Shown: piece after piece, positions 13,493 through 51,540 of the stretch
How the letters are laid out: each line of letters opens with the position of its first letter
Numbering within the stretch: the stretch's first letter is position 1
Assembly (NCBI GenBank): GCA_964017235.1
Contig: OZ024935.1
Coordinates: 87,387,052 to 87,451,051 of the forward strand
DNA: 64,000 nucleotides
Source of the DNA: Sabellastarte sp. h YS-2021
Taxonomy: Eukaryota > Annelida > Polychaeta > Sabellida > Sabellidae
Reading direction: 5' to 3'
Notes under the pieces: model-generated
Database searches by the model: none
What the model was told of the DNA's origin: nothing
Seen by the model: only the letters and a program-made list of their open reading frames with translations
Program-made: the position numbers and the translations under genes

Positions 13493-16400
13493 CCTGGTGT
13501 AGCGCAAAATAATGCATCCCTAAAAAGTGTGTGGGGATGCATTATTTTGCAAAGAGGCTTGCTATATTTTGTATCCCCTTGCAAAATAATGTATCCCCTT
13601 GCAAAATAGTGTATCCCCTTGCAAAAAAGTGTATCTCCTTTGCAAAATAATGCATCCCCTGGGCAATGAACTATCCCCTAACTATATTATATGCTGTTTG
13701 TGCATTTTATTATAAAATAATAATATAAGTTATGTTTAAGTACAAGCTAAAGAGACTATTTAAAATAATATTTATAAGTTATATTCAAGTACAAGCTAAA
13801 GAGTATATTAAAAGGAGTTTACACCTAAAAGTGTGGGATGGATTTGGGTTATTTTGCTTTGTATGTGTAATGGATATTATTTATGTAGCATTTTATGTAT
13901 CATATCCCCATCTGCATGCTTTTTTAGCTATGGGTAACGTCTCTCATTTAATTTTATTAAGTTCTAAAATTTATGTGTGATTATATTATATTTCTTAAGT
14001 TCTAAAATCTTCCCCTGATTATATTTAATATATGAGTGAATTCAACAATGTGAATTATTTATTCACTACCCATTTACAATAGTTTACCTACAATTAGGAA
14101 GACTATGTATAAGATTAAAAGTAAATAAATACATGTAAGATCTTACAGAATAAGCTATTGTTCCACCCAAAAGTAACACATCAGGCCAACAAGGATTAAA
14201 TACAATGAACTAATCACCTGTAAAGACAACACCAAACCAACATGAAGAGAATGGCTTCCTATTAACATAGACATAGGGACATAAGGCCTGTGATGATTAG
14301 TTAGTGATTAGTTAATTGGATTTACTCAGGCTGTATGTTGCTGGGTCCCCTGCAGTCTCAACAGGAAGCCATGCCTTTTATGTTGATTTTCTCAATGTCT
14401 TAGCTGATTAATAAGTTGATTACAATTAAACTTTATTGCCCTCTAGTCAGTAAGTATTTGGCTGAACAATAGAGGGGGTAAATATGATCAAACAATTTAG
14501 AGAAGTTGGAGTCATTAAATCCTACACTTAAATTACAGAACTTGCATTTATTTAGTTTGATATTACTCTTTTATACAACTTTAGCTTTCTGTGATAATAT
14601 TCGAACATATCATGTACAAGTTTCATAGAACTAATCCATTTATATGGTTTGCAAAAGTAATAAGATGAATATATATTAAAATACCTTTAATGTTAGATGT
14701 CTAATCTAATTGCCCATAGTTTGTAAAAGATTAACACATAATTTATATTGTGTTGAATTCACTCATGTGCTGAATATTCATTATATATGTTACAGTCAAT
14801 CTGTGAAACCAGTCATTACACGTAATGACTGAAAGTTTCAGTCATTTCGCGTAATGACTGAAATGACCAGTCATTACGTGCAATGACTAAAATTTTCAGT
14901 CATTTCATGTAATGACTGAAATATATGGTTCATTTTTACACAGATTGACTGAATTAATTTCAGTCAATATGTGTAATTGATTTAGAGTTTTTAGAGTTTG
15001 TAATTGATTTAGACTTCACATCATTTGCATTATTCAGAACCTTTGTACACTGTTCCCCTGCATTTTGAAAATTTTTGTGCTAGAGAACATTAAACTATTT
15101 TAATCAAATAAATAACTTTGGAATTCTCACATGCTCCCTGAATTTATAGCCAGAATTTTCAAACCTAAACGCAGACTTGTGTAATAGACTCTATTGTCAT
15201 TTTCAAAAATATTTTTAAAATATTGAATGGTTACATGTATCTAATTACATTTTAAATATTATTTACAATCTAAATTCATATTTGCAGTTTTAAAACTAAA
15301 CTCATTGTCATAGAATGAAAATATTTCTTTGTTGTCAATGAAATTTATGTTTTTTTTGAAGACTAATTCTCATTTATAAATCATAATTTATAATACATTT
15401 TGCCTTTTATGTTATTAATTAAAGACTCAGTTCTATTGTGGCAGTTTGTTAGGAAGCACAAAACCATGAAGCTTTTGAAGTGAATCTAGTCCACTCTTGT
15501 CCTAATTGCAATGCAGCTCTTTCATCCTGTTTTGTTCTTTCAGGCCTTGTTACTGTTGTTTGACCTCTCCACACAAAGAGCCTGTTTATCAAAGATGGAG
15601 TTGACCTTTAATGTTCTAAAATAACTAGGACAACTTAATCCATTCTTTTAATAGTTATTAAAGCCTGAGTAGGATAACTTAGAGCTCTAACTCACACCTG
15701 AGTACCATTGTAACTATAAATAACCATCAAGATACTTGATTTACTCTATGTTCTTCAGTTAGACATTAATGTTACACAGAACTTTAGATTATAGTAAGAG
15801 TCTATAGATTGGGTCCCCGTTAGGAATGCTACCTATCCATTGGGTCCCCTGTCATATTTTACAAGGCAGTACATATATAATATGAAGGTCATTTTTATGA
15901 CATGAATTAAAAGAAGTGGGGCTTAGTTAAAATAACTGCAGAAGAGTTTGATAATTTGATCATTTACCCATGTTATCAATCAGTAATCATGTCAGAATAT
16001 GTTCAAATCTGAAGTGATAATTTCATTACCCCTCTTTAGTAATCACATGAAAATGCAATTTAAATTACTAAGTGAGGCCAGACAATTTCAGTTTTAGTAA
16101 AGCAAGTATTTAAAAATATTTATTGCAATTCAGCCATTACGCGTAATGACTGGACCTTATTTTCAGTCATTACGTGAAATGACTGAAAATTTTAGTCATT
16201 ACGCGTAATGACTGGTCATTTCAGCCATTACGCGAAATGACTGAAACTTTCACAGATTGACTGTAACATATATACAATGAAAATATAATTTTAAAAATGC
16301 TGTAAAATTAGATTATACATGTGCCCTGATTAGTACAGGATTAGAAGGCAATAGATCTATTTGAAGAGTGATTATCATATTATTGATTTAATGACTCTAA

Positions 16401-16669
16401 TCATTAGTTAAGGCCACATTAAGTCAATTTCAATCAACATATTAAAACACCTCACCCCTATTATTCATGTCTTGTGAGACAATACCTTTGATTAAGACAA
16501 GGGAATATACACTTTTTGATGGGGATGGGGACTTTTTTGTTGCAATATTCTGCACCCCCTAATCCCCCTATTGTTTGGGATGCAAAAGGTTGCAGAAAAA
16601 TAATGCATCCCCAAAAAGATCAAAGGAGGGGATACACTATTTATGGGGATGCATTACGCGCTACACCGG
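13493..16669. mobile_element. Terminal-inverted-repeat DNA element with ATGCATCCCC iterons, host to a nested element
   Basis: The left end CCTGGTGTAGCGC at 13493 and the right end GCGCTACACCGG at 16658-16669 are inverse copies. Just inside both ends the word AATAATGCATCCCC is repeated in both orientations (13508-13548; 16598-16655). The left side also has about five tandem copies of a 21-bp unit like TGTATCCCCTTGCAAAATA (13570-13680). No transposase ORF is seen. The element at 14788-16268 is nested in it, so this one is the older. Confidence 0.65.
14788..16268. mobile_element. Palindrome-iteron TIR element, word AGTCATTACGCGTAATGACT
   Basis: Left end TGTTACAGTCAATCTGTGAAA; right end is the inverse, ending CTGTAACA at 16268. 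Each end has four imperfect copies of a 20-bp palindrome (left at about 14810, 14840, 14869 and 14897; right between about 16131 and 16246). Spacers between palindromes match in the two ends: AAATGACC, then AAAATTTT. The left end has one extra outer palindrome and the right end one extra inner one. TA-rich sequence flanks both sides. The 1.2-kb interior has no ORF, so it is non-autonomous. The transposase superfamily is not identified. Confidence 0.75.
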
Positions 16670-17388
16670 CAGCTAGAGATGTGATGCTGATATCCCTATG
16701 TAGAAAATTTTCTAATTTTTCAAAAACCGCGCGGCTTTTAACAGTTTTCCCCACATTTTCATTGACAGTTGGATTTCCCACATTTTAAGAATGGCAGTCT
16801 ATCACAGAACTGAACAAAAATATGTCAATTGGAAAACAAAATACAAAGCTAACATGGTCATGTGAAGGGATTAACTACTGGGATGGAGATGACAAAATGT
16901 GGTCTGTGACAATATTTAGACACACAAAGGGGTTTAGGACTGCAATAACCAGTAATTCTAAAATGGACACACTTGACAAGGATTATTGTTTGTAGAGGGA
17001 TTAAGTACTTATAATGAAGAAAGGGGTGTCAAGTTAGGTGATAATATATGTCAATATATGAACAATTTTACTGTATCGTTGCCTGTAAGTCTTTGTATTA
17101 AATGCAAATAGGACACTCTAATAAAATATATTCTATTTTATATATAGAAGTCAATCCAGAAGTTAATTAATTGAAAGAGGGTGTAATCTCCAGTATTATA
17201 AAAGCGATACTGGTCAAGGTTCTTTATTGTGGAGAGATTAAATGCATGTTAGTGTATCATGGGGTATTTGAGTATATGTGCGAAAACCCTGAGAGATGAT
17301 CATTCGGCAATAACATTTTGGTAATATTCCACGACACATAAATAAAACGTATGAATATTTCTTTTCATATTTTTCATATATATATATA
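16670..17388. other. Non-coding, nothing recognised
   Basis: AT-rich sequence between two transposon ends; no exon-like segment. Confidence 0.4.
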
Positions 17389-17551
17389 TGTTACAGTAAA
17401 GTTGTGTAATCAGGGATTTCGCGAAATCCCTGAATATTTTAGGGATTTCGCGAAATCCCTGATTTGGTCAGTGATTTCGCGAAATCCCTAAAATTTTCAG
17501 TGATTTCGCGAAATTACTGAAATATTCGAGCAGGGATTTCATGAAATTCCT
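17389..17551 (+). mobile_element. Palindrome-iteron element end, word AGGGATTTCGCGAAATCCCT (five copies)
   Basis: Begins TGTTACAGTAAAGTTGTGTAAT after a TA microsatellite. Palindromes start near 17411, 17441, 17469, 17498 and 17531, with spacers AATATTTT, GATTTGGT, AAAATTTT and AATATTCGAG. The first two are perfect; the later ones carry changes such as GTGATTTCGCGAAATTAC. No matching inverted end lies within the next 780 bp. The nearest inverse end is at 32187-32324. Confidence 0.8.
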
Positions 17552-18339
17552 AAATGTTACATGTAAATTAAAAGAATACTTTTAAGAGTTTTATTTCACC
17601 AATTATTTATGTTTTTATTTTATTTACACAAGATATCACATCAATAGTATGAAAATACAATACAATATAAAAAAAACAAACTTTATACTCAATATTTCAC
17701 AATAGTCTTTGCATTCAGTATTTGACATTAGTTTTATTTCATCAATTATTCCTTTCTTTCATTTTATTTACATAAGGTGTAACATCATACATGTATATAT
17801 TTTATATCCTCATAACAGCTTTTTTGGTAAATATGATAGTTTGTGTCTATTGAAGAGATCTACCATAAAATATAACTATCCCAATCCCAGAAGAATTTTG
17901 TACAAAGCTAAATACTATCACACTTTTAATTTTAGGTGTGATTTAAGTAACTAAAAAAAGTTCATTTATTTCCTCTTTATATCTTTTTATTGTTCCTTTA
18001 CTTTTTGGGGTGTAACACAATTATAAACAAATAACATAAACACAATCAAATATCATATAAAACTTAATCACCCTACAGATTAGTGTCTGTTCATATAATC
18101 CAGATGTAATACAATGTAATGTTAAAATCACAAATATCAAACTGTCTATTATTTATTTAGTATGCTGCCTTTCCAATTTTCAAAAGTTACTGTAATTTAT
18201 TGGTGGTCGGTAAGTCAAACTACAAAACTTGTTGATGTTTTAAATGAAGTGTTTCCTTTTACCATTAATGTCGAACTAAATTCTTCTATAAAACAGGGAT
18301 AATACTGAACAAAGATCTAGCTTTTTGAAACAATGTATA
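17552..18339. other. AT-rich non-coding stretch between two direct transposon ends
   Basis: Two related segments of the type TTTTATTTCACCAATTATTTATG...TTTTATTTACA occur near 17590 and 17735. No ORF of note. Confidence 0.4.
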
Positions 18340-18448
18340 TGTTACAGTAAAGTTGTGTAATCAGGGATTTCGCGAAATCCCTGAATATTTTAGGGATTTC
18401 GCGAAATCCCTGATTTGGTCAGTGATTTCGCGAAATCCCTAAAATTTT
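18340..18448 (+). mobile_element. Palindrome-iteron element end, direct copy of 17389-17497
   Basis: Appears identical over about 109 bp to the end at 17389, with three palindromes. It stops abruptly after the AAAATTTT spacer, where sequence next to the last UCP exon starts (ACTAGCTCC). It lies only 64 bp beyond the UCP stop codon. Confidence 0.8.
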
Positions 18449-18511
18449 TACTAGCTCCAGATCTTAGATGGGGAGAAGGTGATTTTATCCCATCAAGAGC
18501 TAGTTTCCTTC

Positions 18512-18809
18512 TCATTGTGAAGAGGATGACATAAGTATGACCCGACACGACCATTCCCTATCTATACTTTCACACCTCTGTTGCCACAGTTTGTAAACAA
18601 CTCTACGGTCTACACAAACCGTGAGGGTCCACTTGTGTCCAGCACTTCGTCCAGAAGGCAAGGTTTCAACCATTGGCATCATGTCATCAAAGTTGAAGTA
18701 CGGAGTCTGATCCATTGGAAGGTCTGATGAAAAGGGAAGCTTGATTTGCTCGTAGCTAACAAACATCACAATGCTCCAAGATGTGAGTCGCAGAAATGAG
18801 GGAAGACAT
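18512..18809 (-). CDS. UCP2-like: UCP last exon with an unusual C-terminal extension
   Basis: The acceptor TCTATTTCAG precedes 18809. The expected closing segment [24 protein letters not shown] follows, which normally ends the protein within about ten residues. Here the frame stays open for 74 more codons ([20 protein letters not shown], then a Cys/Trp/Arg-rich stretch ending VILMSSSSQ). No membrane segment or known motif is seen in the extension. No AATAAA lies between the stop and the transposon end 64 bp on. The extension may be real, or may be former UTR read through after the native end was lost. Confidence 0.8.
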
Positions 18810-21800
18810 CTGAAATAGACAGGATGGACAGATACAATAATACCAATGAACGGGATTCATAAAAAACATGCCCCTAAATGTACTCCATGGTAGATTTTGA
18901 TGGGTCTCAAAATCGACAAAGATATAAAATGGGGGCGTCAAGTATAAATTCCTGGTGTTCTACGTGATCATATAATGGTCACAGCCAAGGATAAGACTAA
19001 TTACAACCAAGTATATGTATGTGTAATTTTAATGTTATTGCTTATTTTAATTAATAATATATCCCACAGGCTTCATCAAGAGCACTTTGAGAGTGCATAC
19101 GTAATAATAAATAAATGGGAAAATTCAGATTTTTTTTAGTTTCCAGATGGTGTTGCAGATCACTCTCAAATTTAGTGGGATTTTAGTTGGAGCAAAATCC
19201 AAATTCTCATTTTCTGAGTAAGATCCAACCAGTAGTGTTTGCATTATCCGAACAAACAAACAGACAACTGGACAAACAAACGGTCATGAAAATAACACCT
19301 TCTTGGTTGAGTTAATAAAGATATCATAACTGAAATAACTTGAAAAAGGTTTTTGCTAACAAAAAATAATGTCACCCTGATGGAGACATGGGTTAATAAA
19401 ACCTGTAGAAGTTGCAGTATAAGACTGTAAGCAGAATGTAAGGTTTATTGTATTTTGTCACATTAAACCGATGTTATTGAACAGTAAGACAGTTTGGGGC
19501 TGAAAACCCCCCCATTTTTACTGTAACATGGCCATAGTGTCACTTGTATTGGTACTCCAAGGTGGTCAGAAAATAATAACTTCCCTTTTGTCATCCTTTA
19601 TAAGTGTGCAAAGTTTAACTGAGGTCAGTTGAACAATTAGATAGCTAGAAGCTGAAAATCCCCTTATTTCACTTTATGATGGCCATAACTTCTTTCATAT
19701 TTGGACTTAAGGTGACCATAAAATAAGAATGTCCCGTTTTTCATCCTTTATAAGTGTGCAAAGTTAAACTCAGGTTGAAAAGGTTTGTATTGGTTGAATA
19801 ATAAGACAGCTGGAGCCTGAAAACCCCTTTATTTCACTGTAAGGTGATCATAACTTAATATGTTCATTCATATCGGGACTTTACGCTGACCAAAAATAAG
19901 AATGTCCGTTTTGTCATCCTTTATAAGTGTGCAAAATTTAACGGAGATCAGTTGAACAATAAGATAACTAGAGGTTGAAAAACCCCTTATTTGACTGTAA
20001 CATGGCCAAAACTTCATTCATATTGGACTTCAAGGGGAGCATAAAATAAGAATGTCACTTTTGCCAACCTTTACAAATGTGCCAAGTTTTATTTTTAAAA
20101 TTTAAATACTTACTGAGCTTAGGATTAAAAACCATACATTTTAAGTTTAAAATGACCATTTCATTGTTAATATTTAAAGTAAACCATGAACTTCTATTGA
20201 TCTATTTCAATATCAGTGATAACTTAGACTTTAAAAATGGAAAAACAAATTAGCCGCAGGTATTATTCCAGTTTTATGACTTCAAGGAGGTCAAAGCTCC
20301 GGTAATATTTACAGTTTAAGGTCACCAGAATGTTAGGATATTCCTTTGGCAAATCTTAATATATATGTACAGTTTGGTTGAAAAAAGTGAAACATTAAGT
20401 GAACTGGAGGGTTAAAGCCCCTTTTTGGCATTAAGGTAACCTTAAGGTTGCAGATAAAAGGCTGAAAGTTCGGTATGTGAAAGATTATTGAAAAGTAGGT
20501 GAACAACTTATTCCAACAAAACACTGAAATCCTTAGCATTTGTGAGATACAAAGTACCCATTCAAAAAAAAATTATGAAAATCAGATGCCTCCCATTCAG
20601 GCATCTATGGTTTGATTAATCAGAAAAACATTTCTTGCACGTGGATTTAGCTCTAGAATGCTAAATTTTATAGCACTGGTGCTTATGTTTTTTTCTGAAA
20701 CACGATGACGGGGTGTTTTTGAAAAATGCTTAATTATAAAGGTTATCTTAAGTGGAGTTTAAGGTTTCCCCAAAGTATCTCCAAATTTTTTCCAACCCCT
20801 ATAGTTTGGAAGAAAGTTAGGAAGGAAAAATAATTGGAAAGTCAAATTAAGAAGTTATTCAAGTGCGACCATAATCCAATGGTGGCAGTTATCAGTGAAC
20901 CTAATGAAAACAAATTAGTGCCCATGACAGGGCACTTAATAATTGAGTAACAATAAGAATAAGTGAGTTAAAGAAAGGCTCTGAAACATTGTGTAAATGC
21001 TGCAGAATGGTGTAGTTTTAATATCAGTCCATGTTTTAACCTCTCATTTTGTGGTGTTAGGATATGGGCAAGCATATCAAATGTTTATGGTTGACAGTAG
21101 ATGAATCTTATCAATGGTTTTACTTAAAGAAGAGAAATAATAATACCACCAATATCATACTGGAAATATTGCTCTCAACTACAGATAATGCACAAGATTA
21201 ACTAGAAAAATGTTTTTGCTAACAAAAACTAAGCGTCCCAAAAAGGTTCAATACAATATAATATATAGTAGGAAAAGGTTTTTGAAAATAAAAACATGCA
21301 GCACTGAGAGAAGAAGTAAAAGTTAAGCAGACAGTGTGGAAGTTTATGCATTAACATGAAAGAAAAATTTAAGCTTTATTTTTTCAATGGGGTCATAAAT
21401 TGCGAAAAGTTAATTGAATAAATGCTCAGGCTCAGAATTCATAAAGCATCAATAGTTATAATAGGTAGAAAGTTACACCATAAAACTACTTAATTAAAGA
21501 GTAACAGTGCTTTATAAATGCCATATATCTATTTACATTTTAGAAAAAGGTATAGTAAAATTTGAGCCTTTAGAAAGGCAAGAAGTTTATGACACAATGC
21601 TTTGAACACATCTGTCCCAATGAGTAAATAAAAGGTCAATGTTCCCACAAGCCTATTTATGTCTTATGAATAATGCTCATTTCAATTTATATATAATTGC
21701 CAGTCTTTGATGAGTCCCCAGAGAATTAGTCCACTGGGTAAATCTGACTGGCTATCTAGACTCTTCACATATGCTTTCCCAATACCTCTTAACAAATTCT

Positions 21801-24800
21801 AAAGCTGTAAAACCAATAATAAAGCAGATATAAGGAAAAATGTCCAAATTGGCTATTTTATGACCCCAGTTTGACCCCTACAGGGGGGTCGACTGTGAAA
21901 TTTGACTTGCTTTCTAGACTCTCCACATATGGTTTCCCACTACCTCAAATTACATGTTATGGCTGTAAATGCAATACTTAAGAAGATAATAGGGGGGTTC
22001 ACATGAATTTTAAGCTTTCTGGCTGGTAGGTGAGAGAAAATCACTCATAAGTCAGTCATGTTTCATCGGATCACTACCAAAATCTAATCAGCTCGCATTT
22101 TTGATAGTATGAACACGTGTGTATAATTACAAGCTTCTGTGGTCAGTAGATTTTCCTGAGCAGTAATGACGGGCGGGTGTACCCCCAAAAAACTATTTTT
22201 TGATCATGTGACCTTGATAAAGATGAAAGGTCAAATTTAAGCATGTGGAAAAATTTTACCACGCCTAAGGTATATAAGTGTCAAATATGGTTTAAAAGCT
22301 TCAAATAATAAGGGAGGTATTGAGGAGAGACCCCAATGCGGCGGCAGCAGCAAGGAAACTGACGCGAAAATAAATAAGCGCCCTTTCAGGGACGCTTAAT
22401 TATGAAATTACAATTTTATATCTCTGATCTCACTTGCATTTAAAAAATATTGTTTATTACTAAGGATTTCCACATAACGAAGTCCATTTCAATGTAAGAA
22501 AACAGTGAACACAAATTCCTCCTTTAATTGACACATAGAAGCTGATGTGGGATAATGGGTGAAATGCATTCACACAGAACTGCCAGTTACTTATGGTACA
22601 CATGCACTAACAATACCCACAATGTCATGATACAGTCAGCATATATGTGTCTCTAAACAAGCATAAAAGATTTCACTTGTGAAAACTCAGTAAGCCATAT
22701 CAATGATCATAAATACTTGGCAAGAATATCATATTCTTTTTTTGATCTTTTTCATTGTTCTTAAGGTCTCTAATGTCTGTTTAAGGTCAATGCAGTGCAT
22801 TGATAATCAAATGTATTATAATGCAAACATCTACATCAATTGAAATCAAAGGAAAATCAGCTGTGGAGGATCCTGTGTTTGTGCCAAATGACGTTAGAAA
22901 GTTATCAATATATTGACATCTCAGCCACATGGCATGCCTGTCTTATTGATCTATTTTTGGATAGCCCACTCAGTAAGTCTGCAAAACTGGTAGAATCTTA
23001 TGATCAGAAAATAAGGTGCCTTAGGTGATATTTGTATGGACATAAATTGTATGTTTTTTGGCACAGCAAAAGCATAAATTCAAATGGCCTGATTTTAGAA
23101 GTTCTACTTTGATTTGTTTATTTGGGGTTTAACGTCACTTTCAACACTGTACAGGTCATATCACGACGGGTAGTTGGAAGGGCAGAAAGGCTGAAAGTTC
23201 GGTATGTGAAAGATTATTGAAAAGTAGGTGAACAACTTATTCCAACAAAACACTGAAATCCTTAGCATTTGTGAGATACAAAGTACCCATTCAAAAAAAA
23301 ATTATGAAAATCAGATGCCTCCCATTCAGGCATCTATGGTTTGATTAATCAGAAAAACATTTCTTGCACGTGGATTTAGCTCTAGAATGCTAAATTTTAT
23401 AGCACTGGTGCTTATGTTTTTTTCTGAAACACGATGACGGGGTGTTTTTGAAAAATGCTTAATTATAAAGGTTATCTTAAGTGGAGTTTAAGGTTTCCCC
23501 AAAGTATCTCCAAATTTTTTCCAACCCCTATAGTTTGGAAGAAAGTTAGGAAGGAAAAATAATTGGAAAGTCAAATTAAGAAGTTATTCAAGTGCGACCA
23601 TAATCCAATGGTGGCAGTTATCAGTGAACCTAATGAAAACAAATTAGTGCCCATGACAGGGCACTTAATAATTGAGTAACAATAAGAATAAGTGAGTTAA
23701 AGAAAGGCTCTGAAACATTGTGTAAATGCTGCAGAATGGTGTAGTTTTAATATCAGTCCATGTTTTAACCTCTCATTTTGTGGTGTTAGGATATGGGCAA
23801 GCATATCAAATGTTTATGGTTGACAGTAGATGAATCTTATCAATGGTTTTACTTAAAGAAGAGAAATAATAATACCACCAATATCATACTGGAAATATTG
23901 CTCTCAACTACAGATAATGCACAAGATTAACTAGAAAAATGTTTTTGCTAACAAAAACTAAGCGTCCCAAAAAGGTTCAATACAATATAATATATAGTAG
24001 GAAAAGGTTTTTGAAAATAAAAACATGCAGCACTGAGAGAAGAAGTAAAAGTTAAGCAGACAGTGTGGAAGTTTATGCATTAACATGAAAGAAAAATTTA
24101 AGCTTTATTTTTTCAATGGGGTCATAAATTGCGAAAAGTTAATTGAATAAATGCTCAGGCTCAGAATGCATAAAGCATCAATAGTTATAATAGGTAGAAA
24201 GTTACACCATAAAACTACTTAATTAAAGAGTAACAGTGCTTTATAAATGCCATATATCTATTTACATTTTAGAAAAAGGTATAGTAAAATTTGAGCCTTT
24301 AGAAAGGCAAGAAGTTTATGACACAATGCTTTGAACACATCTGTCCCAATGAGTAAATAAAAGGTCAATGTTCCCACAAGCCTATTTATGTCTTATGAAT
24401 AATGCTCATTTCAATTTATATATAATTGCCAGTCTTTGATGAGTCCCCAGAGAATTAGTCCACTGGGTAAATCTGACTGGCTATCTAGACTCTTCACATA
24501 TGCTTTCCCAATACCTCTTAACAAATTCTAAAGCTGTAAAACCAATAATAAAGCAGATATAAGGAAAAATGTCCAAATTGGCTATTTTATGACCCCAGTT
24601 TGACCCCTACAGGGGGGTCGACTGTGAAATTTGACTTGCTTTCTAGACTCTCCACATATGGTTTCCCACTACCTCAAATTACATGTTATGGCTGTAAATG
24701 CAATACTTAAGAAGATAATAGGGGGGTTCACATGAATTTTAAGCTTTCTGGCTGGTAGGTGAGAGAAAATCACTCATAAGTCAGTCATGTTTCATCGGAT

Positions 24801-27800
24801 CACTACCAAAATCTAATCAGCTCGCATTTTTGATAGTATGAACACGTGTGTATAATTACAAGCTTCTGTGGTCAGTAGATTTTCCTGAGCAGTAATGACG
24901 GGCGGGTGTACCCCCAAAAAACTATTTTTTGATCATGTGACCTTGATAAAGATGAAAGGTCAAATTTAAGCATGTGGAAAAATTTTACCACGCCTAAGGT
25001 ATATAAGTGTCAAATATGGTTTAAAAGCTTCAAATAATAAGGGAGGTATTGAGGAGAGACCCCAATGCGGCGGCAGCAGCAAGGAAACTGACGCGAAAAT
25101 AAATAAGCGCCCTTTCAGGGACGCTTAATTATGAAATTACAATTTTATATCTCTGATCTCACTTGCATTTAAAAAATATTGTTTATTACTAAGGATTTCC
25201 ACATAACGAAGTCCATTTCAATGTAAGAAAACAGTGAACACAAATTCCTCCTTTAATTGACACATAGAAGCTGATGTGGGATAATGGGTGAAATGCATTC
25301 ACACAGAACTGCCAGTTACTTATGGTACACATGCACTAACAATACCCACAATGTCATGTTTGTTTATTTATTTATTTGGGGTTTTACGTCGCTTTCAACA
25401 CTGTACAGGTCATATCACGACGGGTAGTTGGAAGGGCAGAGGAAACCAGTACATAGAGTTCGCTAGGGTTGTGTACTGTAAACTGCCGACCAACGGCAAG
25501 CAACTACCAGCTTTCCCACTTACGGCCATGACGGGGATCGATCCCCGGCCGCAGAGGTGGGAGGCGAGAGTGTTACCACTCTGCCACCGTGGCCCCCCCC
25601 ACAATGTCATGATACAGTCAGCATATATGTGTCTCTAAACAAGCATAAAAGATTTCACTTGTGAAAACTCAGTAAGCCATATCAATGATCATAAATACTT
25701 GGCAAGAATATCATATTCTTTTTTTGATCTTTTTCATTGTTCTTAAGGTCTCTAATGTCTGTTTAAGGTCAATGCAGTGCATTGATAATCAAATGTATTA
25801 TAATGCAAACATCTACATCAATTGAAATCAAAGGAAAATCAGCTGTGGAGGATCCTGTGTTTGTGCCAAATGACGTTAGAAAGTTATCAATATATTGACA
25901 TCTCAGCCACATGGCATGCCTGTCTTATTGATCTATTTTTGGATAGCCCACTCAGTAAGTCTGCAAAACTGGTAGAATCTTATGATCAGAAAATAAGGTG
26001 CCTTAGGTGATATTTGTATGGACATAAATTGTATGTTTTTTGGCACAGCAAAAGCATAAATTCAAATGGCCTGATTTTAGAAGTTCTACTTTGATTTGTT
26101 TATTTGGGGTTTAACGTCACTTTCAACACTGTACAGGTCATATCACGACGGGTAGTTGGAAGGGCAGAGGAAACCAGTACATAGAGTTCGCTAGGGTTGT
26201 GTACTGTAAACTGCCGACCAACGGCAAGCAACTACCAGCTTTCCCACTTTGAATGGATATTCCTAATAACATATACATGAAATCTACTTTGAATGGATAT
26301 TCCTAATAACATATACATGAAATCTGAGAATATGCATATGGTTTCTTAGAATCTAATAACACATGTTTCCTAAGTGCAAATGTTATACAAACTCTGTCAA
26401 CTCCAACTGAAGCTACAAGTTCATGCCATACTTTCTGATTACTCTGACAGATACTCAAGAAGATCTTTAGTATTCAGCCTTTCAATAATAATAACATACA
26501 ATATTGCCTTACTATTTCTTCACTAAATCTAATAGATCTAAACACCTTAAAACTTTAAAATTATAACCCAAAGTATATCTTTTCTGAAAAATTAAAATCT
26601 AAAGAGCTTATTAAGTAACCCCAAGCAGTTGTGAAATTTGAAAAAAGCTTTCATGTCATTTGCACCTGCTGAAACACAGCAGCCATGTGACAAGTGTAAT
26701 CAACAGCCTTCAAAAGGCTTCTTGCCAGACAATTGATTTTTACTTCCTTAAGTGTAGGGTTAACAAGTACTTCAAAACAACTTTATAGTATCAATAACAG
26801 ATACTATGAAAGATTACTGATTCAAACATATCAGGTCAGAGATGGTCATCACTGATTACAATTTCCATTCATTACCCTATACTAAACATGTCAAAATGTT
26901 ATTAATGGTACAACACATATCTGCTGCTACTTACTACAGAATCAATAACTTAGATTTTTTTTTTTTGTCTTTAACAATTTATTGTTTGCATAATTGAAAT
27001 TTTACTGATAGACTGGTCAATTGTAAACTGAATAATAGTTTTGTGAATTCTTGCTACATTTACTATTCTTCCATTTTAGTCATTTTTCATTTGATTCGTA
27101 TTCTCACATTTGTTTCAAGGATTTCCTCCCTTTATTATTGAAGCAGCTGGGTCATGTAATCATATGACTTGTTAGTTGATTCTTTTAACAGGATGACAAA
27201 GAAATTTCCGCTGATTTTCAGAAAAAGGTTATAGAAAAGATCAAGAACAATTTCACTTTGCCACAAAATCACAGCAATAAATATTGTTCATACACAGCCT
27301 GCTTATCTGTGAAATTAAGTTATTTTACAGAAAAGATGTACAGAAGAGGTGTTCAAATACAAGTTTGCTTCATCCTAAAGATTCAAAGGAAGCAAATTGG
27401 TTAAGTACCAGTCAGAGACTGTTGATTTACAGCGTAACAGCACTCTGGTGTCCAGTGGAGTGCTGTTTGGTGTGGGAAGTATTGTCTTTTCTAATGACAT
27501 GACCTATCCATTTCCATCTTCCTTTCATAAGTATTGTGGCCATATCCTGTTGGTTACAAGCAGCCAGTAGGTCTTTGCTACTTTTAGTTTTAGGCAAGAA
27601 GATACGCGTTATTTTCCTTAAACACTTTGTATGAAAAGTTGACAGTTTTTCAAGGTCTACTTCTGTCATTCTCCAGCACTCAGAACCGTACAGAAGTGTT
27701 GATAGTACACAACTCTGAGTTTGGTGCCTCTGCTATTCTGGCTGGACTTCCAGACATTATTCAGTAATATGAAGGTATTTCTTGCTTTGGCAATCCTGTT

Positions 27801-30121
27801 TTTGATGTCGTCACAAGCTCTTCCATCACTTCTTACTATGCTTCCAAGGTAAGTAAATCTCTCTATTGTTGGTAGATCCTTATCATAGACTTTTATTGGT
27901 GTGCTGTTTGTAATGTTTAAGGTCATAACCTCAGTTTTCATTTCGCTGATGTTTAGGCCGATGGTTTTGGCAATTTAAGAAAGGTGTTTGGTCTGTTCCT
28001 GCATATGTTCACTTGTATGTGATAATAGAGCAATGTCGTTATCAAAGTCAAGGTCTTCCAGGACACTTTCTATTTTCCATCGCATTCCCCTCTTCTTATC
28101 ATTGGTTGTGCTCCTTATCACCCAGTCTATGACCATATTAAAAAGGATAGCTGACATGATGCAACCCTGTCTGACACCCGTTTTCACTTGGAACATGATG
28201 TTACTAGATGTAAAGCCTTAATTCTGATGAGTCATAAATATCTTTGTTAATTTAATTAATTTTGCAACTTACATCACTGAAAATTAATTATAACACATTC
28301 TAAGGAACAACCAACATAAACCCTAATCAAAAGTCAACAAATGGTGAGGACAAGGCCAAAGTAGAAATCAGTGGCAATTAAAGCAACAAGCTAAGATTGG
28401 AAAGGTAATGGTAAAAGTCACTAACCCTTTATAAAAGGCCTGAGGTCCTTCTGTTTTTGCCATGCGAAGAGCACACTGAATTGCACTTTTGTACTGGCCA
28501 GGAGTGGAGTTCATGAACCGAGTCTTCACAACATCTACAGGAGAAGCCAGAAGAGTTGTCACAAAGCCAGCTCCAGCAGCTGACACAAAATGACATGGCA
28601 TAATGTCTTGTAAGATGTGATGACTCAGCAGATATTCTTTGAACAAATCATAGGTCACCAGTTCAGAGACATTTACAATACAGTTCCGTGTGATGTTTGG
28701 AGCCACACCTGAAAAACAAATGAAAGAGGAAATATATTAGGACAAATAATGTTATAAAAATATGTTAGGGTTAAAAACCATCACTATTTCTTTGATAAAA
28801 TATGAAAAATAATAAAACTGTTTATTTGGTTGCGGTTAAATGCTTTTGTGAGAACTATATAGAAGTTTAAAGTTCCTCCTGTGTGGCTATGGTCCTATAT
28901 GCATGTAGAGCTCCTCTGTAAAGAGGTTTAAAATGACCTTTCCTATTGTTTATTTACAATGTAACCTGTGCAAAAAGAAACATACAAAGTTTAGCCACAG
29001 CAAAGTTGACATCAATTTCAAACAAATACCAACAACAGCAGAAGCCATATCTTTTTTAGAAAAGTATCAACTGCACTGCAAAAGACAACTTCAATTAAAA
29101 GGCTATTTCAACAGAAGTATCAAAACTGTGTACAGCAGGTTTTTTTCTTCTAATATTTAACCTGCACAGTCTTGTAAAACAATAGAAAAGTTTTTTTACT
29201 TACTTTTCATTAAACAAGATCCTCACCTTTCCAGAGGCCTGTAATTCCCTCCTGTGTGGCTATGGTCATATATGCATGTACAGCTCCTCTGTAGCGCTTT
29301 TTGCCACTGGTTTGGGCCTGCAGCCGAGTTTTTACTACATCAGTGGGCTGGAAGCATGTGATGGCCAAAGCACCAGATGTGATCCCAGCCAAGATACGGA
29401 TGTGAAAGTTTGTGTGGTTTGGAGAAGCTAAAATGTTAAAATTTTGTGGAATTTCACCTATAACTGACTGCAAGTTTATATGCACATTTAACAGGCTTCA
29501 CTCTTTTTATTTGTAAAAAAATATATTTGGTCATTTGAAATTGCTACTGTTAAACCTCAAATTCTATCAAACTTAATGAAAGAAAAATATTATATATACA
29601 TGTTACAGTGAATATGTGTAATCAGGGAATACGCGTATTCCCTGAAATTTTCAGGGAATACGCGTATTCCCTGATTACACATATTCATTGTAACATATAT
29701 ATATTTTTTTTTAAATTTCACCAAATGTATTTAACTCATTTACATCAAATATAGGGCATTTGAATACATGATTTTTATACAGAAAAAAAAATAAAACAAG
29801 CTTAAAATGTAAAGATGGTACTTTATTACTGATTAAACATATCTTCTCTTTTCCATTTCTGGATATATTATTCCAAAACTTACTGTTAAAGAGGTTGCAG
29901 TATTTCTGTTTAATCACATCATACAGTCCAATTCTGACTGACGCAAAGCACATTTGCCTTTGCAGCCCTGCAGTTATTCCTTGGTACCAGGCCCGAATAC
30001 CTTCTTTCTGGGCCAAAGTACTCAGGGTGCCAAAGACTCCTTGGAATTCTAGTTTCTTGGCAATAGAACCTGTTTGATCCTTTATGGCAGTAGCTGCGAT
30101 ACTTCCCCCTTCACCTTGAAT
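18512..30121 (-). CDS. UCP2-like: Mitochondrial uncoupling protein (UCP2-like), four exons, 5'-incomplete
   Basis: Four minus-strand exons, 30121-29884, 29427-29227, 28708-28426 and 18809-18512, join in one frame through GT-AG introns (79, 67, 94 and 98 codons, counting split codons once). The product belongs to the SLC25 carriers of the mitochondrial inner membrane, which have three repeats of two membrane helices; UCP1-3-type members move protons or anions. Carrier signatures are present in repeats 2 ([13 protein letters not shown]) and 3 ([13 protein letters not shown]). UCP landmarks are [30 protein letters not shown] and the close of repeat 3, [19 protein letters not shown]. The exon coding the N-terminus and the repeat 1 signature was not found up to 64 kb. 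It may lie outside the window, or this may be a partial copy. The C-terminus is about 74 residues longer than usual. Confidence 0.8.
19120..19420 (-). repeat. Dispersed repeat, diverged copy
   Basis: The segment with CAGATCACTCTCAAATTTAG, ATTCTCATTTTCTGAGTAAG and AACAAACAAACAGACAACTGG resembles, in reverse, the dispersed repeat at 39095-39310 and 45160-45372. It is followed by AAAAAGGTTTTTGCTAACAA, which also occurs near 21206. Identity is weak. Confidence 0.4.
19480..20095 (+). repeat. Tandem repeat, four diverged units of about 155 bp
   Basis: Starts at about 19480, 19632, 19796 and 19952. Each unit has AATAAGATAGCTAG-like sequence, CTGAAAACCCC, a TTTCACTGTAA-like stretch, GGCCATAACTTC, ATAAAATAAGAATGTC, CATCCTTTATAAGTGTGCAA and GTTTAACTGAGGTCAGTTG. 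The copies are old. Two carry ACTGTAACATGGCC, a chance near-match to the palindrome-element terminus. Confidence 0.85.
20457..23185 (+). repeat. 2729-bp tandem duplication, copy 1
   Basis: Repeats at a fixed offset of 2729 from 23186 on. In the compared stretches only one base differs (T at 21439, G at 24168). The junction is at a shared AAAGGCTGAAAG; the right edge cuts through a SINE at GGGCAGA. The unit is non-coding and itself holds older repeats (two related segments near 21700-21850 and 21870-21990) and small hairpins such as AGATGCC...GGCATCT. The 62-codon ORF appears in both copies only because they are copies. Confidence 0.95.
23113..23185 (-). mobile_element. SINE piece at the duplication junction
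   Basis: Tail side of the SINE (TTTGTTTATTTGGGG, CACTTTCAACACTGTACAGG, CATATCACGACGGGTAGTTG) cut at GGGCAGA, where copy 2 of the tandem duplication begins. The uncut version of the same insertion is at 26095-26248. Confidence 0.9.
23186..26167 (+). repeat. 2729-bp tandem duplication, copy 2, interrupted by a SINE
   Basis: Matches copy 1 at offset 2729 up to 25358, then at offset 2982 from about 25601. The difference is a SINE plus its target duplication. Near-identity means a very recent duplication, or two alleles placed in tandem by the assembly. Confidence 0.95.
25359..25600 (-). mobile_element. Full-length tRNA-derived SINE, young insertion
   Basis: Read on the minus strand it starts with a tRNA-like head: GTGGCAGAGTGGTAACACTC (box A like) and GGGGATCGATCCCCG (box B like). 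The body has CCGTCGTGATATGACCTGTA and GTGTTGAAAGCGACG, and the element ends in an (AAAT)n tail. It is flanked by an 11-bp target duplication, ACAATGTCATG, at 25348-25358 and 25601-25611. The empty site with one ACAATGTCATG is at 22619-22629 in duplication copy 1. So the ends are exact, and the insertion postdates the duplication (or is allelic). Confidence 0.95.
26095..26248 (-). mobile_element. SINE, 5'-truncated (head missing)
   Basis: Same family, running from TTTGTTTATTTGGGG to CAACTACCAGCTTTCCCACT, without the tRNA-like head. It is followed at once by a 40-bp direct repeat. Confidence 0.9.
26246..26325 (+). repeat. 40-bp direct repeat, two exact copies
   Basis: ACTTTGAATGGATATTCCTA starts at 26246 and 26286; each copy continues to ATACATGAAATCT. 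It abuts the truncated SINE and could be a long target duplication or replication slippage. Confidence 0.9.
26326..27426. other. Intronic, non-coding, nothing recognised
   Basis: AT-rich, with no repeat shared with the rest of the window and no ORF of interest. Confidence 0.5.
27427..28221 (-). mobile_element. LINE fragment, RTE-like reverse transcriptase, broken
   Basis: Minus-strand pieces of one reverse transcriptase: [20 protein letters not shown] (block with RQGC), [20 protein letters not shown] (the FADD active-site block, here FDND, so a catalytic Asp is lost), [18 protein letters not shown] and the C-terminal [13 protein letters not shown] typical of RTE and related endonuclease/reverse transcriptase proteins. 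It is split by at least two frame changes and a stop, and truncated 5'. It lies in the last UCP intron in the same sense as the gene. Confidence 0.88.
28426..28708 (-). CDS. UCP2-like: UCP exon (repeat 3)
   Basis: The acceptor TTTGTTTTTCAG precedes 28708. It encodes [57 protein letters not shown] and GPQAFYKG, followed by the donor GTTAGT. The PVDVVK repeat 3 signature is intact. The split Gly codon completes correctly with the exon 9.6 kb downstream. Confidence 0.92.
28873..28921 (-). pseudogene. Partial duplicate of a UCP exon inside a UCP intron
   Basis: TTCCTCCTGTGTGGCTATGG, ATATGCATGTAGAGCTCCTC and TGTA match 29245-29292 in the exon coding [17 protein letters not shown] with only a few mismatches. 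It has no splice sites or surrounding exon sequence. It looks like a relic of exon or local duplication. Confidence 0.8.
29227..29427 (-). CDS. UCP2-like: UCP exon (repeat 2 carrier motif)
   Basis: The acceptor ACATTTTAG precedes 29427. It encodes [53 protein letters not shown] and ITGLWKG, followed by the donor GTGAGG. The PTDVVK motif is the repeat 2 carrier signature. About 50 bp of this exon recurs in the next intron at 28873-28921. Confidence 0.9.
29601..29695. mobile_element. 95-bp fold-back element, word AGGGAATACGCGTATTCCCT (two copies)
   Basis: Almost perfect palindrome: TGTTACAGTGAATATGTGTA, then two 20-bp palindromes separated by the AAATTTT centre, then the inverse of the start, ending TAACA. 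One mismatch was seen (CAGTG against CAATG in inverse). It sits in a TA-rich site in a UCP intron. It has the same terminal frame as the 14.8- and 17.4-kb elements but a different word. Confidence 0.85.
29884..30121 (-). CDS. UCP2-like: UCP exon (repeat 1 to start of repeat 2)
   Basis: The acceptor TTTTTACAG precedes 30121, and the frame opens with [16 protein letters not shown]. It continues to [19 protein letters not shown] and [13 protein letters not shown], ending in a split codon before the donor GTAAGT. The intron position directly before IQGE matches that of vertebrate UCP2. An insert, relative to human UCP2, gives a longer loop before the GVFGTL segment. Confidence 0.88.
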
Positions 30122-32186
30122 CTGTAAAAATTGATCAGTTATCCACATATAACAAACTTGGATTACTGTTAATTTTGAGACACTACCAGGGACTTCTAAA
30201 ATCTATGTTAAAGCAGGAAAACAGGTGCAACAACCACTATGTGCAGTCAAACCTTCTGAGGTAGATGTCTTCTGGGTTCAACTGTATTTTAGCATCATAT
30301 ATTAGGTATTACAGAATCATATTAATTGATAAATTTTTGGAAATGTTTAACAAAGTATTTAATCTACACCAGTAAACTAATATACAGTGTATATGGACAA
30401 GTGTTTATAAAGTTAACATATATTATGTTTTATTTCTAGAATTCTGTTGTATATTATTAATATTTGCAAAAATTTGTCGTCCATATGTCTGCAAAATTGA
30501 AGAATTAGATGATTATTTAACTATTCCTATAATTCTTTCCATTGGGAACAATTCTTGTCTACATTGTTTTTCAAATAATGAATGCATTAGAATTAAATTT
30601 CTTGAAAATTCCCATTGAAAAAATTAATTAAGAGGTCATAGAGAGCCAGTTCATCAAATTGTAGCTTGGGGCTATCATTACAAAGAAAAGCCAGTTGTCA
30701 ACTTTCCAAAACCATTTGCTAGATTAATCATACAATGCAATATTTAGGTATTAGTTTTGCACTAAACTTTCAGAAATACATGATTGATGGTGAAAAGATT
30801 TCAAATAGGATGGATTGACTTACAATATAAGCCTTTTAATGAAATCAATGTTCAAATCTGATTAATAATTAACCAACTATAATTTGTTTTTGGAAACCAG
30901 CAACCAGTTTTAAAATATTAATAAACCACTGCAACATTAACATGATTACTGTATTTAAAAATAGAAGTGTTTTCAAGCATAGTGTAATACACATCTTTTG
31001 GAATAAGATATTTTTTGTTCCTCTCATATCTCTCAAACAAATCCCTTTTAAACCTATCTTCTATAGAATCAGACATGACTTCCACTGTTAATGCTAAAAA
31101 TTTCACTGCAATCTTGAAAAAACTATAAATATCACTATAACACCATAAAGCATAAAATGATATGATGAAAAGGTCAAATTTGGGTCTCTTTATATAGCCA
31201 GAAGAGGATTAATGAGATCCTTTGATACCCAAGTTCAAAAGAAGAAGCCATTCCTTGAAGTATTTAACTGTCTTTTAATCTTTTAATACACATTACTCAG
31301 GTGTGAGCTTTCTGGTATCATTTATTGTCATGGCTTCTCACCTCCTATTTTGATGGTAAATCCCTTGAAATGATTAAAGATAACTGTTGAATAAACTGTT
31401 TGGAAGTATATTGCAATTCACATAATGGTATAAATCCCCAACCCCCTCACCCATGGCAGAGGCCAAACTCCATAAGTTAATTACAATTACTTGAAGCTAT
31501 TCATTGATTAAAGATTGCTTGACAAAGGCTTCCTGTAAAACATCAAACATATATTTCAAAATACTATGTAAATAAACAGTACAATAAAATAAACCCTAAC
31601 TCCATGTTAGAATTAATTTACATTAAAACACAGCTCCAAATGTTAAAATTTTTTAATAATATTTTCCAATTATTTCATTTCATTACATCCGATTATAAAA
31701 GATGGATTATTGTTGCTTCATTAAAATACCAGATAATTGAAAAATACCACAAATAGTAATACAAGCCATAGAATCAGCATGTCAGTCGCATACTTTCATA
31801 AATAAAAATGATATTCTAATGAAACAAAGACATTTACTTGTGCAAAGTATATGTATGGTAACACTAAGCATAAATATGTGTTGTAATTCATAATATATTG
31901 AAATGATAGTAATTGTTTTAACTTTTAGATCAGTTTCAATATTAAGACCAATCATAAAGTACTTTTATATACTCATGTACAGGTATCACATTAAATTTTG
32001 AATACAGCTATTATTATCACAAATAAAAAGTTCATCAGTTTCTAAATCTCTAGATGCACATAAAGTATTTTTGGCTTATAACATAATTAAGTTATAATTC
32101 TTCATATAAATTATGTTAAAAATGAATTCCAAAAATTTCACAAATTCACTGAATGCTGATCAGTAAAACTGTGTAAAATATTAGCA
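30122..32186. other. Non-coding stretch upstream of the UCP exons
   Basis: Searched by eye for the first UCP coding exon (ending FPLDTAKVRLQ in relatives) and not found. The only ORF of note, minus 30918-31106, has segments such as FERYERNKKYLIPKDVYYTM and is not identified. Confidence 0.5.
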
Positions 32187-32324
32187 GAGATTTCAGTAAT
32201 TTCGTGAAATCACTGAAAATTTTAGGGATTTTGCGAAATCACTGACCAAATCAGGAATTTCGCGAAATCCCTAAAATATTCAGGGATTTCGCGAAATCCC
32301 TGGTTACACAACTTTACTGTAACA
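32187..32324 (-). mobile_element. Palindrome-iteron element end, inverse of 17389
   Basis: Read on the minus strand: TGTTACAGTAAAGTTGTGTA, then palindromes at about 32302-32281, 32271-32252, 32244-32224 and 32215-32194, with spacers AATATTTT, GATTTGGT and AAAATTTT, the same order as at 17389. The copies carry more changes than the left end (GTGATTTCGCAAAATCCC). After the fourth the sequence turns unrelated. Confidence 0.8.
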
Positions 32325-33759
32325 TATATATCAGTGTGAGTTACAATACAGCATTAAGCAATATATCCGTCGTGCCACCCCCCCCCCCCCCCCACACACA
32401 CACATACTCTATAAGCCACTCTTAATAAACATACTTGACAACTATTAGTTGAGATAAGAAGAAAAAGAAAGTAAAATTTATACAAACCAACGCGGCATCG
32501 ACAGACTGTACAAGTGGATATTTTCACCAGGCATTAATTAGAATTTTATCTATTTTAGGTAATGGGCTTGGACAGTGAAAATTAATTCCAAGTGAAATTT
32601 TCAATCTGTGTTAATCTGTCAAGTAGAGACTAACCATTAATGAAAATTAATTCCAGTGAACATTTTAATATATTGGCATTGGTGAAATTTTCTTCTTTGC
32701 TAAAATTTTTACTTTTACTGTACAAGGCTTAGATCAGTCAAATAGGGTCTCGCGAGAGTGTGGCCTCCCTCTCAAGAGAATGCAGGAACTCAAGGCATAA
32801 AAAGGGGGTTGCCTGATGTGTGACAATTCAGATAACAGCAATCTGTTGGAGTGAGGAGGTATATTTTGTGCCTTTTGGATAACTTTGGAATAATTTTTCT
32901 GGCGAGTTTCTTGATACATTATAGAGCTTGTATGTACGTATACATGTGCATTTGGCTACTATTATATGATGCTTTATTTGTGATAAGCAATCTTTACAAT
33001 CCTAAGTTTATGCTTGGGGATTTTAGTCTACAAGGCTGCGATTTTCATGCATGATTGATGATTGCCGAAAATAACAAGATGAAATGTTAAATTGCACTTT
33101 AAATATGCTTTGTTTACCAGACAGAAGTATTTTAAAATATATTCATATTGTGCTAGGACACTAGTTAATTCTTGTTACCTTTGCAAAGAAGGGGTATGTT
33201 ATGGAGGTACGTTCATTTGTCAGTCTGTTTGTTTATATTGTGTTATGTATTGCTACACGAGTAATGAATTCATCTTTATGAATTATTTTTACGTGGGTGG
33301 GGGCTGGCCAAAGGTGATTGAATGATTAAATTCTGGAAAAAATATCCGAATCTTTCTCTGGACCCCCCAAATAATCCTAGGTCTGTGTTACATGAGTAAT
33401 TTCTAGTCAGTTTGGTTTTAGAAGAAGGGAATTATATATCTACTTATTATCTGTCATTTGGTATGTGTTGTATGGACGCGTATTTACTGATCATATACCG
33501 AATTTATACTTACTGTTTCTACACAAATGTGGAAAAAATGGGTCAGGCATTAGTCTTAACTAAGATTATAAGTTAAGTGTGTGTAATGTGCTGCCATACA
33601 CCACTGGTTCATAACAAAAACTTTTAGGTCCTGCTTAGAGACTAAATCCTGGCTAGAATCTGCCGCATGAAGAATCGGCTATTGAGCTTTGTTATTTGAA
33701 GAATTGCATGCTAGCCTTTCAATTCTGTATGATAAATACATAATTGAAATTATGGAAAT
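32325..33759. other. Non-coding stretch with C run and CA repeat
   Basis: A poly-C run followed by (CA)n lies at 32378-32403. A locally GC-rich piece at 32745-32790 (CTCGCGAGAGTGTGGCCTCC) could be regulatory, but nothing proves it. No exon is recognised. Confidence 0.4.
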
Positions 33760-50340: not shown

Positions 50341-50639
50341 CAAGTGGTTACCAACTCTTCACAGCTACCACAAGACCTTGGCATTATCCAACAGCCCCAG
50401 TTGGCTGAAACAAACCAACTTTTCTGGGGGAATAAAAACAAAACTGGGCATTTTGATGGGGATGTCATAAATGCCAATGTCTTACAAGATTTTAATGTCA
50501 TGTGTGAAAATAATGGTGATGTCATTGACATTATGGACACTGCAAATTTAGATCAGGAATCAAACCGAAACTGTAGCCTTAATATCATTGCTGACCCAAG
50601 TCACGTCCAAAATCTATCATGTGATACGGTTGATACGAC

Positions 50640-51540
50640 ACAAATACGGACACGTTTTGGCTTCATACCCAAGGGTCCACTGAAACTGTATGATGGCAAT
50701 CCAGGATTCTGTAATCGCATCCCAGATATAATAACTGCACATCTACTAATTAGGAATAGTGGTCTCCCTAATTACCTTGGCTGTAGAATACCTGTTTTCT
50801 CTAATCTTAAGTGTCATATTTGGTCTCAATATCTTACAAAATACTGGGATAGACAGTTAACTGACTTACTCAAATTTGGATTTCCTCTAGATTTTGACCG
50901 TACTTGTTCTTTACACTCAACAGAAGAAAATCACAAGTCTGCCCTATTAAATGCTTCCCATGTAGGTAAATATATTGCTGAGGAATTACACCATCAAGCC
51001 ATTCTCGGCCCTTTTGATAAGAAGCCAATCAATTTACATACCTCGCCGCTCATGGTTAGGGATAAGCAGGATAGTGATAGCAAGAGGACCATCATGGATC
51101 TCAGTTGGCCTGAGGGCCATTCAGTCAATTTTGGGGTTGCCAAAGATGTTTATTTGGGTACCGAATTTATATTGAAATATCCTTCTATAGATAGTATTAC
51201 TTCTTCACTCAAAAAACTAGGTCCTGCTGCAATGATATACAAAATTGATATCAGCAGAGCCTTTCGTCAGATCAAAGTAGATCCTGGGGACATTGATCTC
51301 CTAGGTTTCAAAGTCGATAATCACTATTTCCTGGATCTTTCGGTCGCTTTTGGATATAGAAATGGGAGCCAGATCTTCCAGAGATGTACAGATGCAATTA
51401 GATACATAATGGCCCAACATGGTTTCCATAATCTTCACAATTATATTGATGATCTCATATACACTGGTCTCCCATCAGAAATTCATGCTTCATATGACTT
51501 CCTAAAACATCTCTTATCCCTTCTAACATTGAAGTACATC
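50640..51540 (+). pseudogene. DIRS-like element: reverse transcriptase part
   Basis: RT blocks are visible: SPLMVRDKQDSDSKRTIMDL, KIDISRAFRQIKVDPGDIDL and YIDDLIYTGLP (active-site YIDD). The MDLSWPEG and FRQI features are typical of DIRS-order polymerases. Fossil. Confidence 0.88.

Follow-up and report, generated by a model that had tools for sequence, protein, structure and literature searches.

The window analysed here is a 64,000-nucleotide stretch of the Sabellastarte sp. h YS-2021 genome (GenBank assembly GCA_964017235.1, contig OZ024935.1, positions 87,387,052 to 87,451,051). Between positions 14788 and 32324, it carries DNA transposons whose ends contain rows (arrays) of 20-base-pair (bp) palindromic words centred on CGCG. 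From the termini, target-site duplication (TSD), target, and domains, we class these as ends of Ginger2/Tdd-like cut-and-paste DNA transposons. An earlier note had listed five loci in this region. All of them are transposon ends, but when the ends are paired by matches and flanks, they make only three elements. In the features below, letters denote families (lineages) of these elements, L036 is a relative with an open transposase frame, and strand is given where assigned.

14788..16268: family A non-autonomous Ginger2-like element, 1481 bp; TGTTACAGT at both ends; TSD TATA/TATA, 4 bp
14811..14917: family A left array; four 20-bp words, period 29 bp, centres CACG, CGCG, CGTG, and CATG
16132..16242: family A right array; four AGTCATTACGCGTAATGACT-type words, AGCC start in two
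17389..32324: family C composite element, 14.9 kb; TATA flanks on both sides; ends match L036 at ~99%
17412..17551: array at the 17389 end; five words
18340..18448, forward strand: extra family C end, truncated, inside the composite; three words; 18333-18448 is 99.1% identical to 17382-17497
28371..30160, reverse strand: three mitochondrial-carrier-like exon stretches inside the composite; Mito_carr E 4.4e-19, 1.5e-17, and 1.6e-8
29601..29695: family D fold-back nested in the composite, 95 bp; two AGGGAATACGCGTATTCCCT words; flanks TACA/TATA, 3 of 4 bases alike
30390..32332, reverse strand: family C transposase-gene part kept in the composite; matches L036 296-1650 and 1727-2312
32195..32301: array at the 32324 end; four words

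The shared ends and the palindromic words both stood up to counting. The window contains 10 copies of TGTTACAGT, where 0.94 would be expected, and six of these sites are the listed ends. Four further sites lie in a tandem repeat of ~150 bp (19520 and 19994) and elsewhere in the window (42571 and 62114). Of the 20-mers centred on CGCG, 14 have 9 or more of their 10 positions paired; every one lies in 14788-32324, and 0 were found in 100 dinucleotide shuffles. Their tandem period is 29 bp. The earlier note had also seen one word in three ends. These ends are the two ends of the composite and its truncated internal end. Its claim of a uniform word within each element fails. The 17389 end reads AGGGATTTCGCGAAATCCCT twice, followed by AGTGATTTCGCGAAATCCCT, AGTGATTTCGCGAAATTACT, and AGGGATTTCATGAAATTCCT, and all four left-end words of the 14788 element are imperfect palindromes.

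The 17389 and 32324 ends of the composite form a terminal inverted repeat (TIR) of 142 bp with 97.2% identity. Three parts (17382-17787, 30390-30975, and 30973-32332) are 99.3-99.5% identical to the L036 element. Between these L036-like end regions lie ~12 kb of other DNA. The transposase gene in the composite is not intact, as the L036 match breaks at the end of exon 1, whose frame ends at L036 1717. A sister of the composite, 98-99% identical, is found on another chromosome (C1:25375389-25387096) and shares long blocks at 99.2-99.8% identity (18449-23186 at 99.7%, 26283-32244 at 99.2%). We read the carrier-like stretches as a captured or transduplicated gene piece. Its full length occurs at two places, the window and the C1 sister, among the 40 scored of 1408 candidates, a list that the nested fold-back flooded, and a parent gene may exist elsewhere. 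The transposase-bearing relative of the fold-back is L061/L078 (L078 is the end of L061). The composite also contains a direct duplication (20457-22629 and 23186-25358, 2173 bp, 99.95% identical). Its start is rearranged: when window 17376-18448 is compared with L041 136-1147, a match to the outer flank of the C1 copy lies between the full and the truncated left ends.

According to the main text of Bao et al. (2010, PMC2836005), Ginger2/Tdd elements have TGTNR ends, a 4-bp TSD, an RTATAY target, and an H2C2 plus DDE transposase lacking GPY/F or YPYY, and a table in that paper gives TIRs of 45-297 bp. The present elements share each of these features. The tips are TGTTA, TGTTG, TGTCR, and TGTCA across the lineages read, although decayed single copies exist (TATTA at the right end of L036). 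The 4-bp TSD is identical in 24 of 28 paired ends (assessed in TGTTACAGT-type families only); five of these 24 are non-TATA, namely TTTA, GATA, CATA, and twice TATC. TATA adjoins 100 of 127 ends, and a purine stands at -5 in 123 of them. The composite TIR falls inside the published range.

L036 (C3:82582400-82587300) is the relative with an open transposase frame that the earlier note had asked for. It measures 4297 bp between its ends and encodes a 537-amino-acid frame, with a 5' exon followed by a GTAAGT...AG intron (read by eye). The frame resembles the PFV integrase (E 4.4e-18) and has Pfam matches to rve (E 2.4e-7) and H2C2 (E 0.003), neither of which reaches the curated cut-off. In 12 lineage representatives, D193 is kept in all, D134 in 10 (one N, one gap), and E230 in 11 (one gap). 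The zinc-finger residues are kept in most of them; Y or D occurs in three representatives, and two have gaps. A pattern search of the 537-amino-acid L036 frame found no GPY/F or YPYY, with exon 1 checked by eye. All eight transposase tails examined (lineages C, B, H, E, G, and I, and further H and C copies) carry a CXC-like Cys-rich segment. It matches Pfam TCR below cut-off in the member shown (best E 0.0021), and its sole solved-structure match is LIN-54 (E 0.53).

Three other classes were considered and rejected. Ginger1 needs a CCGG/CCGT target and an OTU or Ulp1 domain; the target here is RTATAY, and no such domain is present in the L036 frame. piggyBac needs a TTAA target and its own type of transposase, and RAYT/REP an IS200/IS605-kind tyrosine transposase. 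Here, we find RTATAY and a DDE integrase-type core.

Two further features were seen in related copies. In the family C element L037 (3431-4856), part of the transposase gene is present three times, 551 bp apart. The family A element L040 (5463-6083) holds a second integrase-type open frame (rve, H2C2), which is 22% like the family C transposase.

The genome search covered 1.786 Gb. The TGTTACAGT tip with the first half-word, at up to two mismatches, gave 1616 + 1576 ends and the reversed control 0; family E ends (TGTCRTGTACAAGTTGGG...) gave 286 + 261 and their control 0. Exact AGGGATTTCGCGAAATCCCT occurs at 61 places. The copies studied came from the first 100 places of the tip pattern (contig C1 and the start of C2), the exact-word places, and protein matches. 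With the transposase as query, 102 matches were listed at 100% to 34% identity (81 of 5009 candidates scored), and a second query listed 114. Around protein matches, 33 loci were fetched (L055-L077, L079-L085, and L126-L128), of which 26 carry arrays of at least two words. Counting family C of the window, one genome holds 13 lineages: 12 in the transposase tree (A-K and M) and N outside it. Their main words range from AGTCATTACGCGTAATGACT to GTACAAGTTATAACTTGTAC and are listed with the integrase-region identity to C.

A: AGTCATTACGCGTAATGACT; 71% (one of three copies)
B: AGTAATTTCGCGAAATTACT with AGGAATTTCGCGAAATTCCT; 95%
C: AGGGATTTCGCGAAATCCCT
D: AGGGAATACGCGTATTCCCT; 72%
H: AGGGAATTCGCGAATTCCCT; 78%
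I: AGTAAATACGCGTATTTACT; 70%
J: AGGCATTTCGCGAAATGCCT; 68%
M: AGGCATTACGCGTAATGCCT; 67%; 2 of 8 half-sites, weak label
F: GCCCATTTC(RY)GAAATGGGC; 46%
K: GTCCATTTC(RY)GAAATGGAC; 47%
G: GTTGAATGTATACATTCAAC; 52%
E: GTACAAGTTATAACTTGTAC; 57%
N: AATCCGCCTAGGCGGATT; read from imperfect copies; 21- or 28-bp spacing

The word goes with the transposase lineage, a link the earlier note had proposed to look for. Across the 12 lineages, copies with the same word cluster in the transposase tree, and sister lineages have similar words. Their differences are confined to bases 3-4 (B/C and D/I), base 3 (A/M), or base 2 (F/K). Just beyond a family A end, another row of 20-bp palindromes (GTAGTTCCAATTGGAACTAC type) was seen on the reverse strand of L085 (1713-1886).

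The lineages are similar in layout. Behind the tip (TGTTAC, TGTCRT, or similar, then a half-word) stands a row of 20-bp palindromic words, which often number five and mostly lie 29 bp apart. Lineages H, I, J, G, and K, whose integrase regions are 47-78% identical to C, have most neighbours spaced by 29 or 30 bp and the innermost by 30-33 bp. Exceptions are one spacing of 40 bp in F, one of 49 bp in M, one of 72 bp between two sets in K, and 28, 29, 39, and once 57 bp in E. Five copies of family E have 3, 4, 4, 5, and 6 near-identical words, which indicates that units are gained or lost in register.

The tip itself resembles the word. In the 12 lineages of the tree (N was outside this test), element bases 7-16 are similar to the lineage's outer half-word, for instance AGTAAATATG and AGTAAATACG in I, ATTGAATGTA and GTTGAATGTA in G, and GTACAAGTTG and GTACAAGTTA in E (tip and half-word, respectively). 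Between A and M, base 3 differs in the tip as well as in the word. Own-lineage matches amount to 87 of 120 bases, compared with a mean of 58.9 for randomly dealt words; 0 of 200,000 shuffles reached this value. Within the eight related AG..CGCG lineages, 57 of 80 match against 48.6 (P = 0.0002). The tip is also where the transposase must act.

The earlier note had proposed that every change is mirrored in the other half of the word and spread to all copies in the element. Among the 127 ends (119 distinct), 87 were assigned to seven end types; the other 32 have indels or belong to other lineages. Four array positions in each type gave 28 consensus words. Full symmetry is found in 13, namely all 7 outermost words and 6 of the 21 inner ones. 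The other 15 are asymmetric, one of them at the CpG centre alone. Perfect outermost words are no rule because the search pattern fixes part of this word, and lineage H (one locus) has an outermost hybrid. An asymmetric word keeps its place in the array and recurs in most copies examined; hence, such words are mainly inherited. Of 16 minority half-sites, 6 coincide with the main half-site of another lineage, where 0.82 would be expected (P = 0.0001), under a null that takes single and double changes as equally likely and in which several lineages enter with one locus. Such intermediate mixtures within one element, which the earlier note itself had named as counter-evidence, refute wholesale concerted replacement; they look like the outcome of turnover in steps.

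One might ask whether the symmetry reflects a nucleic-acid structure such as a hairpin, cruciform, or RNA stem with compensatory changes. The main words of the lineages do differ by mirrored changes, as in a stem, and the 95-bp fold-back is a single long inverted repeat. However, a 20-bp palindrome leaves almost no loop, many asymmetric hybrid words are stable, and the tip shares the half-word sequence although it is not its paired arm. We regard this explanation as very improbable.

Private mutations, seen in one or two copies, address the origin of the symmetry. The set comprises 326 words, with L056 left out because it belongs to a different lineage; of the 4 mirrored pairs obtained when it was included (P = 0.0007), 3 came from L056. 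It contains 79 private mutations: 68 break symmetry, 10 make it, and 1 is neutral. Only one mirrored pair was found against 0.38 expected (P = 0.34, a small sample). Hairpin (quasi-palindrome) correction is therefore not supported as the source of symmetry, since mirrored private mutations show no excess after insertion. This bears on a broader alternative, in which the words drift by descent while protein specificity stays constant, hairpin-templated repair keeps the symmetry, and unequal exchange keeps the arrays. The gain and loss of array units in register agrees with it, and so does a single tree for words and transposases. It is harder to reconcile with the lack of an excess of mirrored private mutations, the fixed hybrid words that persist across copies, and the tip, which lies beyond the 29-bp array and still goes with the word. 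Hence, we consider it rather unlikely.

Within the words, C-to-T or G-to-A changes affect 67 of 828 CpG positions and 10 of 1187 other C/G positions (pattern-fixed bases excluded, shared variants included). This CpG decay matches what germ-line methylation would give. It also fits a host protein, either a transcription factor or a methyl-CpG-related factor, which would bind the palindromes to control or silence the elements. On the other hand, 13 words occur in one host and are echoed at the tips, which a single factor fits poorly. A host protein is thus improbable.

Instead, we interpret the words as made of half-sites to which the transposase binds and which are replaced step by step as its specificity changes. 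We hold this to be modestly probable overall; from the sequences, we infer the binding, the dimer reading, the selection, and the orthogonality. The link between word and lineage, the resemblance of the tip, and the hybrid words would all be explained best by a transposase-read array with stepwise half-site turnover. The earlier note had suggested that a dimeric protein and its site changed specificity together. The word-lineage link and the tip resemblance fit this; the mirrored, concerted part does not hold, and reading by a dimer is plausible.

Which part of the transposase follows the word was assessed by partial Mantel tests of word distance against region distance beyond the catalytic core, for nine regions; shared ancestry can inflate such values. 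The barrel region (query 426-475) tracks the word with 12 lineages (r = 0.57, P = 0.0006) and with 8 (r = 0.40, P = 0.018). For the zinc-finger region, the values are r = 0.51 and P = 0.013 with 11 lineages and P = 0.19 with 7; for the first N-terminal stretch, P = 0.039 with 7 and 0.09 with 11. Stretch 476-500 gave P = 0.045 with 12 lineages and no tracking with 8. We take these values as no more than a lead to the part that reads the word. An AlphaFold2 model of a 510-amino-acid frame was poor (predicted local distance difference test, pLDDT, 47). The 201-amino-acid C-terminal part was modelled as a long helix and a barrel (pLDDT ~67-92), with the CXC tail not resolved in the model. Compared with solved structures, its best matches are mostly Tudor/SH3-like barrels (top E 0.016, none at 0.001).

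Several observations weigh against reading the words as sites that follow transposase specificity. Divergence of the CXC-like tail shows no relation to word distance once the core is allowed for (r = 0.07, P = 0.38), and core piece 179-230 tracks it with 8 lineages (r = 0.32, P = 0.02), though not with 12. Because the lineages were labelled by word first, some of their agreement with the tree is built in, and descent alone could explain much of it. The B/C split in the transposase tree is weakly supported, and D, H, K, M, and N rest on one array-bearing transposase locus each. For five of the 12 lineages (E, F, G, H, and I), no other word fits the tip as well as the own word, and five more (A, B, D, J, and M) show a tie. 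The own word is beaten in C, where it matches at 5 of 10 bases and the words of B and I at 7, and in K, where it matches at 4 and the word of E at 5; C has kept the tip of B, and the K tip fits poorly. Within the DNA fetched, 7 of the 33 transposase loci (L055, L060, L069, L077, L079, L081, and L128) have no array of at least two words. For L128 (C8:85976413), 981 bp were fetched, little of which lies beyond the gene, and no palindrome array was found there. L128 is a distant integrase relative; downstream, it reads by eye like a Ulp1 protease and a PHD finger, as in Ginger1.

The CXC-like tail may still be the word reader because, as reported for piggyBac and piggyBat (PMC7351741, PMC11707139), dimers of C-terminal Cys-rich domains bind subterminal palindromes. 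In the same sources, related transposases read unrelated palindromes, and the core reads a tip-proximal motif. These systems differ from the present elements in their transposase and TTAA target. Moreover, piggyBac has one palindrome per end, piggyBat three on the left and none on the right, and the present elements a row at both ends. The tip motif is unlike the palindrome in piggyBac/piggyBat and alike here. REP/RAYT (PMC2817692) is similar in that its palindromic sites agree with the transposase trees, a pattern reported as coevolution, and in that each genome has many repeats. Its transposases are bacterial, IS200/IS605-like tyrosine enzymes, whereas the present system is cut-and-paste and integrase-type, with arrays. 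Galileo (PMC3688188) likewise has several sites for the transposase DNA-binding domain within long repetitive TIRs, but this is a P-superfamily THAP domain, and the abstract does not mention palindromic words. In the main text of PMC2836005, the terms palindrom-, subterminal, CXC, and tesmin, and with them the word arrays, half-word tips, and CXC-like tail of the present elements, are absent. The texts of the Ginger paper, the IS481EU paper, and the bivalve transposon paper do not contain palindrom-. A literature text search, with Repbase and most subscription journals outside its scope, did not find the word cores or TGTTACAGTAAAGTTGTG. Hence, the element class is known, and the arrays appear to have no description in the literature so searched.

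For the mechanism, we propose as most likely that the integrase-type transposase encoded by the element itself acts as a dimer or multimer and uses the same DNA-binding part to read both the tip and the words. Each word consists of two inverted half-sites, and a row of dimers would mark and synapse the element ends. Half-sites would change singly. Gain and loss of 28/29-bp units would spread some of them, and selection for fit to the lineage's transposase would restore the symmetry of the main word. When specificity shifts, the new half-site would move piecemeal through the array and leave fixed hybrid words. Sibling lineages in one genome would thereby reach different words and should cease mobilising each other. 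In family C, conversion would have reached the outermost words on both sides, with the half-site of B found in some inner half-sites and the tip; the B/C change may have run in either direction. At its fullest, and as a tentative picture that stays short of probable, at least 13 sibling lineages would each have an address word of their own that can evolve, that the cut tip echoes, and that recurs along a row of palindromes, with B/C caught between words.

A few other features were seen. The family B element L038 (1719-5470) has MADF/Myb-like and DDE_Tnp_4 open frames, which we take to be a nested transposon, probably of the PIF/Harbinger type. In the window, reverse-transcriptase open frames lie beside a tyrosine-recombinase-like frame (50344-55250), an arrangement that we presume to be that of DIRS/Ngaro-type retroelements. 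A 147-bp tandem repeat forms two arrays (1-1614 and 4095-6685) with 86-87% matches.

A change of specificity in both a transposase and its site without loss of function is hard to observe. If the fullest picture above is true, the B/C series would represent natural steps of an integrase-type transposase that changes its DNA specificity and parts from its siblings. In this one genome, many sibling lineages differ in their words, half-converted arrays are fixed, and the ends number in the thousands. Such material could show with which part an integrase-type transposase reads subterminal DNA and whether a change of word keeps sibling transposons from mobilising each other's copies.

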